A DNA stretch of 11,705 nucleotides from an uncultured Lachnospiraceae bacterium (lineage in GTDB: Bacteria > Bacillota_A > Clostridia > Lachnospirales > Lachnospiraceae). A model generated the notes under the pieces. That model saw only the letters and a program-made list of their open reading frames with translations, was not told the DNA's origin and did no database searches. The DNA is taken from NCBI GenBank assembly GCA_947178085.1, contig CAMWWS010000048.1, positions 1 through 11,705 on the forward strand, read 5' to 3'. This document shows, in pieces, positions 3,250-11,705 of this stretch; position 1 is the stretch's first letter, and every line of letters starts with the position of its first letter. A program made the translations under genes and the position numbers.

Positions 3250-3307
3250 AATCATTTCCTCTTTACTATAATACTGTTATCGGACTTTCTAAATTGCCCT
3301 GCACTCT

Positions 3308-3336
3308 ATTATAGCCATTGTCTGTCCACATGTCAA
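3308..3336 (-). promoter_or_regulatory. Sigma-A promoter of the left ABC exporter operon
   Basis: On the minus strand, TTGACA (3331-3336) is followed by exactly 17 bp and then TATAAT (3308-3313). Both hexamers and the spacer match the sigma-A consensus perfectly. Transcription should start near 3301, giving a leader of about 50 nt before the ATG at 3249. No regulator gene is adjacent, so expression may be strong and constitutive unless something binds the hairpin-forming dyad that abuts the -35. Confidence 0.85.
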
Positions 3337-3365
3337 AGCCCTCTCAAGCGAATGCTGAGAGGGCT
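3337..3365 (-). terminator. Probable hairpin terminator after copA
   Basis: A 10-bp perfect inverted repeat, AGCCCTCTCA (3337-3346) and TGAGAGGGCT (3356-3365), encloses a 9-nt loop. It lies 72 nt past the copA stop. On the minus strand only a short T stretch (TTTGACAT) follows, so intrinsic termination may be incomplete. The stem ends one base before the -35 hexamer of the ABC operon promoter, so it could also act as an operator dyad. Confidence 0.5.
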
Positions 3366-3437
3366 GATTAACTCTTTAAACTTAACATTAAATTAACTTA
3401 TTTACCAATTACTAAACTGTTATCGCAGTTCACGAAC

Positions 3438-6071
3438 TTAGCTGATTGACACCACTTCGTAGTCCTTGTCTTCCACTGTCTTTTTCAAAACCTCATCAGC
3501 AATTTCAGCATTCAGGCTGACTACTGCTGTACCCTTTTCGTGGCTTACAACCGCCTCAGTTACCTCCGGCAGTTCTTCTAAGGCCTTCTTAACGCTCGCC
3601 TCACAGTGACCACACATCATTCCTTTGATTTCCATTGTTTTTTCCATTTCTTTTCTCTCCTTTTCATTTATATTTTTTTCAATTTTATCAATTACTTCCT
3701 TCTCATTTTTACTGTTCATATCTTTTTCACCTTTATGAGCTGTTTTACGCCTGACCTTTTTGTCATGCTTCGTATCGTACATCTTAAAAAGATTGAGCCT
3801 CAGTGCATTGCTGACAACGCAGAAGCTTGATAAGCTCATTGCCGCGGCGCCGAACATGGGATTGAGTTTCAATCCGAATATAGGATACCATAAACCTGCG
3901 GCAAGCGGAATACCTATTACATTGTAGAAAAACGCCCAGAACAGGTTTTCATGAATATTCCTAAGTGTCGCCCGGCTAAGCCGGATAGCGGCAGGCACAT
4001 CGCTGAGTCTGCTCTTCATCAGTACGATATCCGCTGCATCTATGGCAATATCCGTTCCGGCGCCGATTGCGATACCTATATCCGCTCTGGTAAGCGCCGG
4101 GGCATCATTAATGCCATCTCCGACCATCGCAACCTTGCCTCTTTTTTGCAGATTTCTGATTACGCTCTCTTTGCCATCGGGCAGTACTCCTGCAATCACT
4201 TCATCCACACCCGCCTGCTCACCGATTGCCTGTGCCGTTCGTTCGTTGTCTCCGGTTAACATAACTACTTTTATACCCATATTCTGCAGTTCTTTTACCG
4301 CCTTTGCACTATCTTCTTTCATCACATCCGCTACTGCAATAACGCCTTGAAATTTACCTGCTCTGCTGAAAAACAGCGGCGTCTTACCTGCTTTCGCGAA
4401 GCTCTGTGCCTGCCAGGCAGCACTATTTGGAACCTCCGCCTTCGTCTTGATGAAATCAAGATTACCGCCTGCCAATTCTTCTTTCTGCCACATACCTACG
4501 AGTCCATTTCCCGGCATGGCACGAAAATCCTCTACAGCTTCGGCATGTATGCTTTTTTTCTCTGTAAACTCCAGTATTGCTTTAGCCAACGGGTGCTCGC
4601 TCTTTTGCTCCAATGCAAGAGCCAGCTTTAACAAAGCTTCCTCATCACAGCTGCCATACGGAGCAACATCTGTCACTTTAGGTTCTCCGCTTGTAATAGT
4701 GCCCGTTTTATCCAGTGCGGCAATCTCTATCTTTCCGGCAAGTTCCAGAGACTGCGCCGTTTTAAACATAATTCCGTGCTTGGCTCCCATACCGTTTCCC
4801 ACCATGATTGCCACGGGAGTCGCCAACCCAAGTGCGCATGGACAGCTTATCACAAGTACCGATATAGCTCTTGCAAGTGCGAACCCGAAGCTTTCACCGG
4901 CAATGAGCCAGATAATACCGGTCAATACCGCTATTCCTATTACTGCCGGAACAAAAACTCCCGATACTCTGTCAGCCACTTTGGCAATCGGCGCCTTAGT
5001 CGCAGCCGCATCGCTTACCATCTGTATAATCTGTGACAGCGTTGTGTCTTCGCCGACCCTTGTCGCCTCGCAGCGAAGGAAACCTGACTGATTAAGGGTA
5101 GCCGCGGAAACACTGTCGCCCGCCTGCTTATCCACGGGAATACTTTCCCCGGTAAGCGCCGCCTCATTGACAGCACTGCTTCCTTCCACTACAATTCCGT
5201 CAACAGGGATATTTTCTCCAGGTCTTACGACAAACTTATCGCCTATTTTGACTTGCGCAATATCAACCTCTATTTCCTGACCGTCTCTTATAATCACCGC
5301 TTTTTTAGGCGCCAGTTTCATCAGACCTTTTAATGCATCTGTTGTTTTTCCTTTTGAACGCGCTTCCAGCATCTTTCCCACAGTAATCAGCGTTAATATC
5401 GTTGCAGCGGATTCAAAATAGAACTCATGCATATATGACATAACCATTTCCATATTTCCATTAAGCTGGGCGTCAGTCATTGCAAACAGTGCATATACGC
5501 TGTATATAAAAGAAGCTCCCGCTCCCATCGCAACAAGAGTATCCATATTCGGTGCTCCATGCATGACGCTCTTAAATCCGCTTACAAAAAATTTCTGGTT
5601 AATAACCATGATTGCAACGGTAAGAAGCAGCTGCAACAGCCCCATTGCGATATGATTATTATGGAAAAAGGTTGGCACCGGCCAGTTCCACATCATATGT
5701 CCCATGGAAAAATACATCAGAGGCAAGAGCAGGCAGACAGATACGGCCATTCGTTTTAATAAAAGCGGGGTTTCCTTATCTTCCAGCGCACTCTCATAGG
5801 ATGATGCATTTGATGATGCGCCTCCGGCACTATTGCCGTTTCCTGAAACTCCCACGTTTTTTGCGGAAGCTCCATATCCTGCCGCTTCCACAGCCGCTAT
5901 GATTTCTTCCGAAGACGCAGTACCTTCCACGCCCATTGAGTTAGTCAACAGGCTGACTGAACATGTTACCACACCGGGAACTTTTGATACCGCTTTTTCC
6001 ACTCTGGCGCTGCATGCGGCGCAGCTCATTCCGGTAACTTCATATTGTTCCATATCTATCACTATCTCCAT
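3438..6071 (-). CDS. copA: Copper-exporting P1B-type ATPase CopA with fused C-terminal CopZ-like domain
   Basis: This ATP-driven pump moves Cu(I) out across the cytoplasmic membrane. Domains in order over 877 residues: N-terminal heavy-metal-associated domain with MSCAAC (Cys17, Cys20); a Gly/Ser/Asn-rich linker (about 71-92); membrane helices with a Met/His-rich loop near 123-143; actuator motif TGES (307-310); metal-site CPC (Cys410, Cys412); phosphorylated Asp454 in DKTGT; His493-Pro494; GDGINDAP (651-658); last helices with Tyr716-Asn717 and MSLSS (745-749). After residue about 765 comes a Lys/Glu-rich linker, then a second metal-binding domain from Met809 with MMCGHC (Cys820, Cys823). 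ATG 6071 has only a weak AAGAAGA site; Met7 at 6053, with GGAG 12 nt upstream, is an alternative and would leave the domain intact. It lies 37 nt downstream of csoR, in the same operon. All catalytic motifs are intact, so copper specificity is well supported by the CPC motif and context. Confidence 0.96.
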   Translation of the reverse strand: MEIVIDMEQYEVTGMSCAACSARVEKAVSKVPGVVTCSVSLLTNSMGVEGTASSEEIIAAVEAAGYGASAKNVGVSGNGNSAGGASSNASSYESALEDKETPLLLKRMAVSVCLLLPLMYFSMGHMMWNWPVPTFFHNNHIAMGLLQLLLTVAIMVINQKFFVSGFKSVMHGAPNMDTLVAMGAGASFIYSVYALFAMTDAQLNGNMEMVMSYMHEFYFESAATILTLITVGKMLEARSKGKTTDALKGLMKLAPKKAVIIRDGQEIEVDIAQVKIGDKFVVRPGENIPVDGIVVEGSSAVNEAALTGESIPVDKQAGDSVSAATLNQSGFLRCEATRVGEDTTLSQIIQMVSDAAATKAPIAKVADRVSGVFVPAVIGIAVLTGIIWLIAGESFGFALARAISVLVISCPCALGLATPVAIMVGNGMGAKHGIMFKTAQSLELAGKIEIAALDKTGTITSGEPKVTDVAPYGSCDEEALLKLALALEQKSEHPLAKAILEFTEKKSIHAEAVEDFRAMPGNGLVGMWQKEELAGGNLDFIKTKAEVPNSAAWQAQSFAKAGKTPLFFSRAGKFQGVIAVADVMKEDSAKAVKELQNMGIKVVMLTGDNERTAQAIGEQAGVDEVIAGVLPDGKESVIRNLQKRGKVAMVGDGINDAPALTRADIGIAIGAGTDIAIDAADIVLMKSRLSDVPAAIRLSRATLRNIHENLFWAFFYNVIGIPLAAGLWYPIFGLKLNPMFGAAAMSLSSFCVVSNALRLNLFKMYDTKHDKKVRRKTAHKGEKDMNSKNEKEVIDKIEKNINEKERKEMEKTMEIKGMMCGHCEASVKKALEELPEVTEAVVSHEKGTAVVSLNAEIADEVLKKTVEDKDYEVVSIS
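3645..3662 (-). promoter_or_regulatory. Internal ribosome binding site and ATG for a free CopZ-like chaperone inside copA
   Basis: On the minus strand AAGGAGAG (3655-3662) precedes an in-frame ATG at 3647, with 9 nt between AGGAG and the ATG. Starting there gives exactly 69 residues, the usual length of stand-alone CopZ, with MMCGHC near the N-terminus. The product would be a soluble Cu(I) carrier in addition to the fused domain. Internal initiation is inferred from the sequence. Confidence 0.55.
3717..3733 (-). promoter_or_regulatory. Second possible internal start in the copA linker
   Basis: AAGGTG (3728-3733 on the minus strand) lies 8 nt before an in-frame ATG at 3719, codon 785 of copA. 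It would give a 93-residue product: a charged Lys/Glu-rich leader followed by the CopZ-like domain. The site is weaker than the one at 3655-3662 and may be a remnant of a former gene start. Confidence 0.3.
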
Positions 6072-6108
6072 TCTTCTTGCTTTATCATTAATTGGATTGT
6101 TAAAATCT

Positions 6109-6459
6109 TCATTTCATCAGCTTCTCTAACAGTATAACCAATTCGTCTATTACTTCATCGTTCCCTGCACGGATATTATCAGCTACGCAGGAATGAATAT
6201 GGTTTGCAAGCAACGCTTTACTGAAGCTGTTCAGCGCAGCATTAACTGCTGCAACCTGTATCAGCACATCCGTGCAGTAGGCGTCCTTTTCAATCATTCC
6301 CTGTATTCCGCGTACCTGACCTTCGATTCGTTTCAGGCGGTTCATCATATCTTTATATTCCTTCGGTGAACGTTCTTTAGTCTTATTGGAACATTCGCAG
6401 GCTGCCTCATGGCAGTTTTCCATGTTTTCTATCTGCTGTTTTTCATTATTTTGTGACAT
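6109..6459 (-). CDS. csoR: CsoR-family copper-sensing transcriptional repressor
   Basis: This is a 116-residue all-helical repressor of the CsoR/RcnR family. It releases its operators when Cu(I) binds and so turns on the copper pump downstream. The ligand set is clear: Cys62, His87 and Cys91. The spacings of 25 and 4 residues are the same as in Mycobacterium CsoR (Cys36, His61, Cys65), and a Tyr precedes the first Cys. The core begins near residue 33 (RLKRIEGQVRGI at 41-52). The N-terminal 30 residues are a charged extension with an added cluster Cys16, His17, Cys21, Cys23, which could bind metal but is not part of the family core. The start at 6459 has a good GAGGAGCG site. Two CsoR-type operators lie just upstream, so it should repress its own operon with copA. 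Confidence 0.93.
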   Translation of the reverse strand: MSQNNEKQQIENMENCHEAACECSNKTKERSPKEYKDMMNRLKRIEGQVRGIQGMIEKDAYCTDVLIQVAAVNAALNSFSKALLANHIHSCVADNIRAGNDEVIDELVILLEKLMK

Positions 6460-6474
6460 TTTTTCGCTCCTCGC

Positions 6475-6490
6475 ATACCCTATGGGGTAT
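6475..6490. promoter_or_regulatory. CsoR operator, downstream copy
   Basis: ATACCCTATGGGGTAT consists of perfect half-sites ATACCC and GGGTAT around 4 central bases. The ATACCC/GGGTAT pattern is typical of Firmicute copper (CsoR) operators. It lies about 15-30 bp before the csoR ATG and just downstream of the predicted transcription start, so a bound repressor would block the start of elongation. Confidence 0.75.
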
Positions 6491-6503
6491 TAATCTTAAG
6501 AAT

Positions 6504-6532
6504 AAAATATACCCTCATGGGGTATATGTCAA
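6504..6532 (-). promoter_or_regulatory. Promoter of the csoR-copA operon
   Basis: The minus strand reads TTGACA (6527-6532), 17 bp, then TATTTT (6504-6509). The -35 is perfect and the -10 is moderate. An alternative -10, TATATT, would need a 15-bp spacer and is less likely. Start of transcription is expected near 6497. An operator occupies the spacer, consistent with copper-inducible expression. Confidence 0.7.
6507..6527. promoter_or_regulatory. CsoR operator, promoter copy
   Basis: The core ATACCCTCATGGGGTAT (6509-6525) is extended by AT on the left and AT on the right, giving 8-bp half-sites around 5 central bases. It fills the spacer between the -35 and -10 of the csoR promoter, where a repressor excludes RNA polymerase. 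Its half-sites are one base further apart than in the other copy. Confidence 0.8.
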
Positions 6533-6573
6533 GATATCTTTACTCAAAATATCAAACTTCTTGCTCTTATCTC

Positions 6574-6582
6574 TGATATAAT
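6574..6582 (+). promoter_or_regulatory. Extended -10 promoter of the AraC-GGDEF gene
   Basis: TGATATAAT matches the extended -10 form TGnTATAAT perfectly. No good -35 hexamer is found at the right distance, which is common for extended -10 promoters and also for activator-dependent ones. Transcription should start near 6589, giving a leader of about 25 nt. The nearest CsoR operator ends 46 bp upstream. Confidence 0.6.
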
Positions 6583-6584
6583 AA

Positions 6585-6602
6585 CTTTACGATATCGTAA
6601 AG
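6585..6602. promoter_or_regulatory. Perfect 18-bp palindrome at the AraC-GGDEF start site
   Basis: CTTTACGATATCGTAAAG is perfectly self-complementary. It covers the predicted transcription start and ends just before the ribosome binding site (AAGGG at 6604-6608). It could be an operator for a dimeric repressor. In RNA it could form a short stem of about 6-7 bp next to the ribosome binding site. The binding protein is unknown. Confidence 0.5.
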
Positions 6603-6613
6603 AAGGGTGTATT

Positions 6614-7411
6614 ATGCGGAATATAGAGCTTTTGATGGCTGCGCTTGAGTATATAGAGCTGCATCTTAGTGATGAAATCAAGACTGAGGACATCGCAGGC
6701 ATATGTTTTTGTTCTAAATCCACTCTCGAAAAATTATTTCGTAGTGTGCATAACATCTCCGTACATGAATATATCGTTCGGAGAAGAATGATGTTAGCCG
6801 CAAAAAAAATATCGCAATATCCTGAAATTCCCATTCTGGACATTGCCCTTGAATACGGCTATAGCACTCACGAATCATTTGCGCGCGCATTTGAACAAAT
6901 CTGGAACTGTAAACCATCTGAATTTCGCACAACAAAATTCACAGAATTGTTTCCGAGGTTAAACGCGCCTACGGAGAAAGGAGATAATTATATTATGCAG
7001 AAAAAGCATGTAGATATCAGCGAACTATACGATTTATTTAAAGAGAGAAAGGACTGCTTCTTTGTAACCTGTGATATTAAACAATTGATACCGATTAATG
7101 AAATATCCAGAAAAGCCGGCGATTTAGCAATTTTGGAGCAGATGCGGCGTCTTACGGTATCAGCCGGCGAGGAAGATATCGTATTCCGTATCGGCGGTGA
7201 TGAATTTTGTATACTAACATCCAGCAGCGATGCTGCTTATGCAGAACAGATTGCGGACAAAATCCGCAACATGAATAATAACACTTTTTCTTACGGAAAT
7301 CAGGAAATCCCTTTGACTCTCTACGTAACTACTATAAGTCTGAAAGAATGTCACAGTAAAGAAGAGGTATTTTCCGGATTGCACAGCGCAATCGATAAAA
7401 GTAAAATGTAA
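6614..7411 (+). CDS. AraC-family DNA-binding domain fused to a shortened GGDEF domain
   Basis: This is a 265-residue, probably cytoplasmic transcription factor. Residues 1-110 form an AraC-type double helix-turn-helix: first motif about 24-47, second about 75-97, ending PSEFR. No sensor domain precedes it. Residues about 132-265 resemble a GGDEF domain: Asp154-Ile155, Asn162, Gly169-Asp170 and an intact GGDEF at 194-198 match the nucleotide- and metal-binding positions. However, the LTGLxNR entry helix is missing, the conserved Lys of FKxIND is Ile159, there is no RxxD inhibitory site, and the protein ends at the AK position before the usual GRN. It may therefore bind a nucleotide (perhaps c-di-GMP or GTP) as a signal rather than make c-di-GMP; this is inference. 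The start at 6614 has AAGGG with 5 nt to the ATG. It is divergent from csoR and convergent with the right-hand ABC operon. Target genes are unknown. Confidence 0.85.
   Translation: MRNIELLMAALEYIELHLSDEIKTEDIAGICFCSKSTLEKLFRSVHNISVHEYIVRRRMMLAAKKISQYPEIPILDIALEYGYSTHESFARAFEQIWNCKPSEFRTTKFTELFPRLNAPTEKGDNYIMQKKHVDISELYDLFKERKDCFFVTCDIKQLIPINEISRKAGDLAILEQMRRLTVSAGEEDIVFRIGGDEFCILTSSSDAAYAEQIADKIRNMNNNTFSYGNQEIPLTLYVTTISLKECHSKEEVFSGLHSAIDKSKM
6977..6997 (+). promoter_or_regulatory. Internal ribosome binding site and ATG at the AraC/GGDEF junction
   Basis: AAAGGAG (6977-6983) is followed by 11 nt and an in-frame ATG at 6995, codon 128. This is exactly where the GGDEF-like part begins. Initiation there would give a free 138-residue GGDEF-like protein. 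The spacing is slightly long, and use of the site is inferred. Confidence 0.4.
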
Positions 7412-7452: not shown

Positions 7453-7510
7453 TTTCTACAAGATGTCCTTTATCACATCAGTCTTTACCTGATTATTAGG
7501 ATGAATTCCG

Positions 7511-7974
7511 CTATACATAGTACTGCGCCTGAGCCTCCCACATTCTGTGGTAAACTCCTCCCTCATCCGCCACAAGCTCATCATGGGTTCCGTTTTGGAC
7601 TATCTGCCCTTCATCAAACACAACAATCTCATCGCAAAAGCGACAGCTGCTCATTCGATGCGATATAAACACCGCGGTCTTATCCGCCACCATATCATTG
7701 AAGCGTGTATAAATATCCTGTTCGGCAATAGGATCTAACGCGCTTGTCGGCTCATCAAGTATTACCAGCGGGGCGTCTCGGTACAGCGCTCTTGCAAGCG
7801 CAATCTTCTGTTTTTCTCCGCCTGATATTTCAATTCCTTCCTCATCGCCATCCTGCTGATCTTTTAAAAGCTTCGAATCAATTCCGCTCTGCATGCTCTG
7901 AACCCTCGTATAGATACCGGCATCCTTAAGACTCTTTATAACCTTCTCCCTGTCAAATTCAGGACCTGCCGCCA
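7511..7974. repeat. Direct repeat, copy 1 (3' end of ABC gene B)
   Basis: This copy aligns without gaps to 11242-11705. I count 28 mismatches in 464 positions, about 94% identity. The left boundary is the stop codon; the right end is set by the edge of the window, so the true repeat is probably longer. Both outermost blocks of about 50 bp are identical. Confidence 0.9.
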
Positions 7975-11210: not shown

Positions 11211-11241
11211 ACGCTCTCCCCTATCACATAAAACGATTCCT

Positions 11242-11705
11242 CTATACATAGTACTGCGCCTGAGCCTCCCACATTCTGTGGTAAACTCCTCCTTCATCCG
11301 CCACAAGCTCCTCATGTGTCCCGTTTTGGACTATCTGCCCCTCATCAAATACAACAATCTCATCGCAAAAGCGGCAGCTGCTCATTCGATGCGATATAAA
11401 CACTGCAGTCTTTTCCGTCACCATATCATTGAAGCGTGTATAAATATCCTGTTCGGCAATAGGGTCCAGTGCACTTGTCGGCTCATCAAGTATTACCAGC
11501 GGGGCGTCTCGGTACAGCGCTCTGGCGAGTGCAATCTTCTGTTTTTCGCCTCCTGATATTTCAATTCCTTCCTCATCGCCATCCTGCTGATCTTTTAAGA
11601 GCTTCGAATCAATTCCGTTATACATGCCCTGAACCCTTGTATAGATACCAGCATCCTTAAGACTCTTTATAACCTTCTCCCTGTCAAATTCAGGACCTGC
11701 CGCCA
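11242..11705 (-). CDS. ABC exporter half-transporter B' (partial, N-terminal part beyond the window)
   Basis: This is the last 154 codons of an ABC ATPase domain, open to the right edge and ending at TAG 11242-11244. It shows the acidic stretch DQQDGDEEG, signature ISGGE, Walker B LVILDEPTSALD, the switch histidine in FISHRMSS and the C-terminus AQAQYYV. It differs from the C-terminus of the B gene at 7511-9388 by only about 6 residues (for example Gly for Ser, Tyr for Gln, Asn for Ser, Thr for Ala). It is therefore a recent paralogue of B lying directly upstream of A, 31 nt away and in the same direction. The catalytic motifs that can be seen are intact, so the visible part is not a pseudogene. 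An upstream A-like partner is expected but cannot be seen. Confidence 0.92.
   Translation of the reverse strand, partial: AAGPEFDREKVIKSLKDAGIYTRVQGMYNGIDSKLLKDQQDGDEEGIEISGGEKQKIALARALYRDAPLVILDEPTSALDPIAEQDIYTRFNDMVTEKTAVFISHRMSSCRFCDEIVVFDEGQIVQNGTHEELVADEGGVYHRMWEAQAQYYV
11242..11705. repeat. Direct repeat, copy 2 (3' end of ABC gene B')
   Basis: Second copy of the repeat at 7511-7974, offset by 3731 bp with no gaps. Homology stops abruptly at the stop codon; the downstream sequences differ (the start of gene A here, the convergent intergenic region in copy 1). Confidence 0.9.

Follow-up and report, generated by a model that had tools for sequence, protein, structure and literature searches.

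Can a gene for a copper-exporting pump also yield a free copper chaperone, by letting ribosomes enter its message a second time near the 3' end? The question is raised by copA (3438..6053, minus strand) in the window analysed here, which is the whole stretch of 11,705 nucleotides from an uncultured Lachnospiraceae bacterium. The gene was identified as a P1B ATPase with Pfam and NCBIfam models and encodes 871 amino acids from the ATG at 6053, arranged as an HMA domain at the N-terminus (5874..6041, minus strand; PF00403, residues 11-66, with the motif GMSCAAC), a P1B ATPase core and a CopZ-like HMA domain at the C-terminus. The reading frame carries the motifs CPCAL and DKTGT of a CPC-type core, and its score of 591.7 bits against TIGR01511 exceeds the cut-off of 397 for that model of P1B-type copper-exporting ATPases; against PRK10671, the equivalog model for CopA of E. 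coli, it scores 644 and stays below the cut-off of 1316. The open reading frame as called mechanically starts at 6071. Translation of the pump probably begins at 6053 instead, because MEQYEV is the N-terminus in eight of nine fetched homologues and the ATG at this position has the best upstream signal among the possible first codons (aSD energy -6.4 kcal/mol).

Upstream of copA lies a gene for a CsoR-like copper-sensing repressor (6109..6459, minus strand), which matches PF02583 with 106 bits and scores 78.1 bits against the NCBIfam RicR model, under the cut-off of 175. Two ATACCC-GGGTAT palindromes before this gene, at 6475-6490 and 6507-6527 (minus strand; 6475-6527 together), are presumably CsoR boxes and are treated here as candidates, the second of them overlapping a promoter-like site (TTGACA/TATTTT) at 6532-6504. 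Divergently from csoR-copA, positions 6614-7411 (plus strand) encode a 265-residue protein that joins an AraC-type DNA-binding domain to a GGDEF domain (RIGGDEF). On the 3' side of copA, a stem-loop without a long U run (3337..3365, minus strand) is a possible terminator, and right after it a sigma-70-like promoter matching at 12 of 12 positions (TTGACA-17-TATAAT; 3308-3336, minus strand) is directed toward an ABC exporter gene at 3255. Two ABC exporter gene ends (7505-7974 and 11236-11705, minus strand) are 93.8% identical over 470 bases, the mark of a recent tandem duplication or gene conversion.

The first-pass annotation of this DNA read the last 69 codons of copA as a complete CopZ-like domain, and the tail indeed matches both CopZ and HMA models as well as sequences of solved CopZ proteins (for example 6ff2, E = 6e-9). 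It is CopZ-like in combining a length of about 70 amino acids with an HMA domain and an MxCxxC motif, here MMCGHC. The pattern MxCxHC recurs in 76 of the 78 tails of the near relatives described below, and a passage in a review assigns it to CopZ2-like chaperones (PMC7558416). With 51.3 and 51.4 bits against the NCBIfam CopZ equivalog and exception cut-offs of 91 and 85, the tail falls below both, and we therefore call it CopZ-like from its appearance, with no formal assignment to those models. Matches to the C-terminal region of copA were found in 7979 database proteins, of which the best 120 are listed.

The nested CopZ-like coding sequence (3438..3647, minus strand) would run from the ATG at 3647 to the stop codon of the pump and specify 69 residues with the MxCxHC motif. 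It is preceded by AAAAGGAGAGAAAAGAA-ATG, in which the Shine-Dalgarno sequence AGGAG (3657..3661, minus strand; inside AAGGAGAG and kept in relatives) occupies 3661-3657 and leaves 9 nucleotides to the ATG. The in-frame start codon and the spacing that had been claimed are thus both present in the sequence, ahead of a complete domain. Between the last pump helix and this site lies a hypervariable linker rich in Lys, Glu and Asn (3648..3779, minus strand), which differs in length and sequence from locus to locus and through which the pump's frame is open. The duplex energy at ATG 3647, calculated with a presumed 16S tail, is -8.7 kcal/mol and ranks at the top of all in-frame ATG, GTG and TTG codons in copA; the runner-up is a GTG with -8.4 kcal/mol. 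A second ATG in the linker, at 3719, has -6.9 kcal/mol and was rejected as the internal start, being missing in the homologues P0002 and P0007. When the codons of this copA were resampled synonymously, an equally strong site arose in 10% of the trials (p = 0.10), and over 77 loci a mean of 32% reached an equally strong Shine-Dalgarno sequence. Because one resampled sequence in ten equals the site, this genome by itself does not settle the matter and is only suggestive; it is when judged across relatives that the site is convincing.

For the near relatives, at least 595 matching stretches were found in named genomes; the 80 with the best matches were kept and analysed together with the window, a selection biased toward relatives that are full-length and fused. 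Among these 81 rows, 78 were parsed as fused genes; one was cut by a contig end (L040), one has no fused domain (L071) and one was left unanchored by the script (L004), the signal in the last being visible by eye (-9.3). A signal was counted when a start codon was accompanied by an aSD energy of -5 or lower, using the best ATG or GTG within 3-14 codons of the motif. The first-pass annotation had named loss of the Shine-Dalgarno sequence in close relatives with the fused domain as grounds for abandoning the idea, and the opposite was observed: start codon and Shine-Dalgarno sequence are kept in 73 of the 78 fused genes (window included), with -7 or better in 70, counts that the choice of the best candidate tilts somewhat toward presence. 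The five genes without a good signal are L017, L053, L057, L058 and L074. As a control, 147 of 2103 other in-frame ATGs in the near set (from codon 60 onward and more than 75 nucleotides from the site) reached -7 or better. The internal site has a median of -9.3 and the pump's own start one of -8.8 in 109 pairs, the strongest candidate being taken for each site; in 69 pairs the internal site equals or exceeds that of the pump. The start region is also predicted to be open, with a mean unpaired fraction of 0.74 (n = 75) vs 0.41 at random sites in the same genes (n = 375), in a calculation supplied with the first 80 of the 139 fused genes.

The position of the motif shortly after the last transmembrane helix would suit a ribosome pause that aids folding or insertion of the pump and involves no initiation. 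Yet the distance from the NALRL motif at the pump end to the internal ATG ranges from 23 to 68 codons, while the spacing between Shine-Dalgarno sequence and ATG is nearly constant; a pause would not need an ATG at a fixed spacing, and the Shine-Dalgarno sequence and the start codon go missing together. We regard a pause as the most improbable of the alternatives considered here.

Selection on the DNA motif itself was examined in the codons just upstream of the ATG, as the first-pass annotation had suggested in calling for a comparison of the Shine-Dalgarno bases with other linker positions. Only loci with an ATG exactly 8 codons before GMxC were used, with any upstream sequence (of the fused genes parsed for this test, 62 of 75 from the near relatives and 44 of 55 from a wider draw from the class, described below), so that the ATG was set by its position and not by the Shine-Dalgarno sequence, which avoids circularity. 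At codon -4, Glu is encoded by GAG and GAA in a ratio of 57:1 in the near set, compared with 31:117 at the other Glu codons of the linkers (p = 7e-27), and at codon -5 the ratio of AAG to AAA for Lys is 34:2, compared with 111:267 (p = 6e-15). The class draw gave 30:3 vs 14:72 for Glu (p = 3e-14) and 21:7 vs 65:150 for Lys (p = 8.5e-6), all p-values reported here treating related loci as independent. Windows with -7 or lower peak just upstream of the ATG, in 95% of the loci in the near set and 82% in the class draw, and outside -21 to -11 no window from -40 to +19 rises above 3% of the loci. GGAG is found in all three codon registers, in 102, 7 and 2 loci, with 10 loci lacking it (L007 being counted twice, the second time as L181), which indicates that a DNA motif has been kept and not simply a peptide. 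The fixation of synonymous codons and the use of three registers both point to selection on the start signal beyond the protein sequence.

These data bear on two further explanations. The gene might produce the fusion only, the ATG and its Shine-Dalgarno sequence being left over from a copZ that was once a gene of its own, or a by-product of the Lys-Glu-rich linker, a suggestion that draws on the split forms of pump and copZ seen among relatives and on the fact that Lys and Glu residues by themselves often give a Shine-Dalgarno sequence. We find this very unlikely: a relic would be expected to decay in so variable a linker (138 distinct linkers were found among the 139 parsed fused genes of all sets), the codons at -5 and -4 are fixed while the remaining linker prefers GAA and AAA, and the motif occurs in three registers. 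Proteolysis within the linker, which is long, charged and variable, could also release a free chaperone; it would leave the Shine-Dalgarno sequence and the codon fixation unexplained, and we consider it more doubtful still. The open linker adds little to the argument for internal initiation, because fused loci are defined by a linker free of stops; stops in the two other frames of the linker were seen in 126 and 132 of the 139 fused genes.

How widely the arrangement is distributed was examined in 196 genomes from the class of G007, one of the comparison genomes described below, in 170 of which a pump was found at 1e-100. The 30 best loci (L181 among them being a repeat of L007) and the 40 matches ranking after them were read, giving 69 loci beyond the near set, of which 51 were fused, three split, seven without a C-terminal HMA domain and eight unanchored. 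The internal signal is present in 47 of the 51 parsed fused genes, one of them with a GTG, and absent or weak in L197, L209, L229 and L233. Seven of the eight unanchored loci are fused with a motif resembling a Shine-Dalgarno sequence when inspected by eye, and three are weak (-5.3 to -5.6). From Synergistota and Spirochaetota we took the 30 best loci each, of which 28 (new to the analysis) and 29 were counted, and here the signal is present in four of four and six of six parsed fused genes; the linker of L270 from Synergistota is identical to that of L052. Pumps without a C-terminal HMA domain make up 18 of the 28 loci examined in Synergistota and 18 of the 29 in Spirochaetota, so the arrangement is not universal. 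A tree of 180 rows and 140 columns, in which few branches are supported, indicates scattered loss only (7 changes).

Natural losses provide a second line of evidence. No ATG is within reach in L017, L057, L209 and L229, and in all nine fused loci without the signal no window at the expected place of the Shine-Dalgarno sequence is better than -5.1. In L199, an ATG is missing, but a GTG with a strong Shine-Dalgarno sequence (-11.6) is present. In L017, L057 and L074, copA is followed directly by a separate small HMA gene, a separate CopZ-like gene lies directly upstream in L197 and elsewhere in L058, L209 and L229, and the HMA search found no separate CopZ-like gene for L053 and L233. The signal has thus been lost mainly where a separate CopZ-like gene exists: a soluble GMxCxxC gene accompanies seven of the nine loci without the signal and six of 30 genomes with it (p = 0.003), a test that is only moderate in strength because the HMA search may miss divergent members, as it did in G031 for the copZ-like gene beside L071, and because the sorting was done by eye. 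The 30 comparison genomes are those for which all HMA matches were listed, those in the latter half of the near set being left out, and HMA frames above 700 amino acids were counted as pumps, in several cases with length as the only criterion. Two of the genomes, G007 and G009, have one ambiguous small HMA protein each, and that of G019 was rejected as CopZ-like on inspection; when all three are counted as positive, the p-value is 0.019. Within 600 nucleotides downstream, a copZ-like gene was found in three of nine loci without and in 0 of 112 loci with the signal, a comparison of loci with at least 300 nucleotides available that used a pattern match plus an HMA check, by which pattern matches at L070 and L212 were dropped as not HMA. 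When the loci were sorted into fused and split forms, a match at L295 was discarded on the same grounds.

Other small proteins were met in the same survey. Proteins of about 80 amino acids with the motif DCANC and membrane-anchored HMA proteins, most with GGCCGGG or similar, were excluded as CopZ by eye. In L090, L094, L140 and L169, the small protein beside copA has a membrane segment at its N-terminus, together with a GGCCGGG-like stretch and an HMA domain, and in L090 and L094 it sits between csoR and copA; such a protein might carry copper while tethered to the membrane. A second family of soluble HMA proteins (GMxCxxCEAHVND-like) was seen in L085, L148-L151, L173, L178, L096 and L099, several of them ending in KKGLFG or similar, and adjoins copA in L057 and L074. 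Split pump and copZ neighbours also occur among relatives. In L271 from Synergistota, the linker frame is shifted and the stop codon of the pump overlaps the ATG of the chaperone, with the Shine-Dalgarno sequence and the ATG kept; this split may be an assembly error.

Taken across the relatives, the comparative evidence supports the proposal of the first-pass annotation that pump and free chaperone come from one gene. Very probably, two proteins are made from the copA message: the fusion of pump and CopZ-like domain and, through initiation at the internal ATG, a free CopZ-like chaperone of 69 residues. In the process that we envisage, copper would relieve repression by the CsoR-like protein, and csoR and copA would be expressed on one message. 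Ribosomes starting at ATG 6053 would produce the pump with the CopZ-like domain tethered at its C-terminus, while other ribosomes would bind the Shine-Dalgarno sequence at 3661-3657 in the open RNA of the linker and initiate at ATG 3647 in the same frame, so that the second entry site would supply a free Cu(I) chaperone. We infer from the sequences that translation begins at ATG 3647, that the resulting protein binds Cu(I) and acts in support of the pump, and that copper controls its synthesis. The same internal start could instead be read from a short mRNA of its own, made from a promoter inside copA, for which a weak promoter-like site (9/12) at 3904-3877 might be proposed; shuffled sequences are nearly as rich in such sites, with 8 found and 6.5 expected over 3250-6700, and we consider this source of free CopZ unlikely.

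If internal initiation on the copA message is correct, many pump fusions annotated as single proteins conceal a second protein. Of the 30 genomes that have the signal, 24 yielded no clear soluble chaperone with GMxCxxC besides the predicted nested one, although two of these 24 contain an ambiguous small HMA protein. The locus also offers a clean case for selection on internal starts, in which the position is fixed, codon usage is biased, and losses have occurred naturally alongside a compensating gene. One hypothesis, to which we give an even chance, is that most Clostridia with a fused copA carry their chaperone nested in this gene, and that the ribosomes passing along the pump frame set the ratio of chaperone to pump. 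This would be a third way of coupling the two proteins, alongside separate genes and frameshifting, and one maintained across the divergence of the class and also present in some Synergistota and spirochaetes.

The closest comparison is with the copA gene of E. coli, where the product of frameshifting is the N-terminal domain, made by a change of frame. In this respect the window's copA differs from that type, since its predicted free domain is C-terminal and in the pump's own frame. No account of an in-frame copZ start inside copA was among the papers listed in our literature search, and an earlier description may exist. Passages in two articles describe how programmed frameshifting lets the single E. 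coli gene copA encode a free chaperone in addition to the pump (PMC7558416, PMC10187127), with a slippery sequence, a pseudoknot and the nascent chain involved according to one of them (PMC7558416). The likeness is that one copA gene specifies the full pump and, here by prediction, a free CopZ-like chaperone; the difference is that frameshifting is used there, whereas here an in-frame internal start would release the C-terminal domain. The parallel in principle with another mechanism, as first suggested, therefore holds, with the addition that the opposite end of the gene is used, and if our reading is correct, two lineages have hit on different translational tricks for obtaining pump and chaperone from one gene. 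A further parallel is provided by Cas11b, which is described as arising from cas8b through internal in-frame translation (PMC11899642). There too, a small separate protein is obtained from an in-frame start within a larger gene; the proteins are different ones, of an archaeal CRISPR system, and the product there was reported from experiment, whereas here it is predicted. Finally, passages in the two copper articles also mention a separate copZ in an operon with copA (PMC7558416, PMC10187127), an arrangement that resembles the present one in placing the same two activities in one operon, with copZ having its own ribosome binding site. The genes in such operons are divided by a stop codon, whereas in the locus studied here the frame of the pump runs across the proposed start of copZ.
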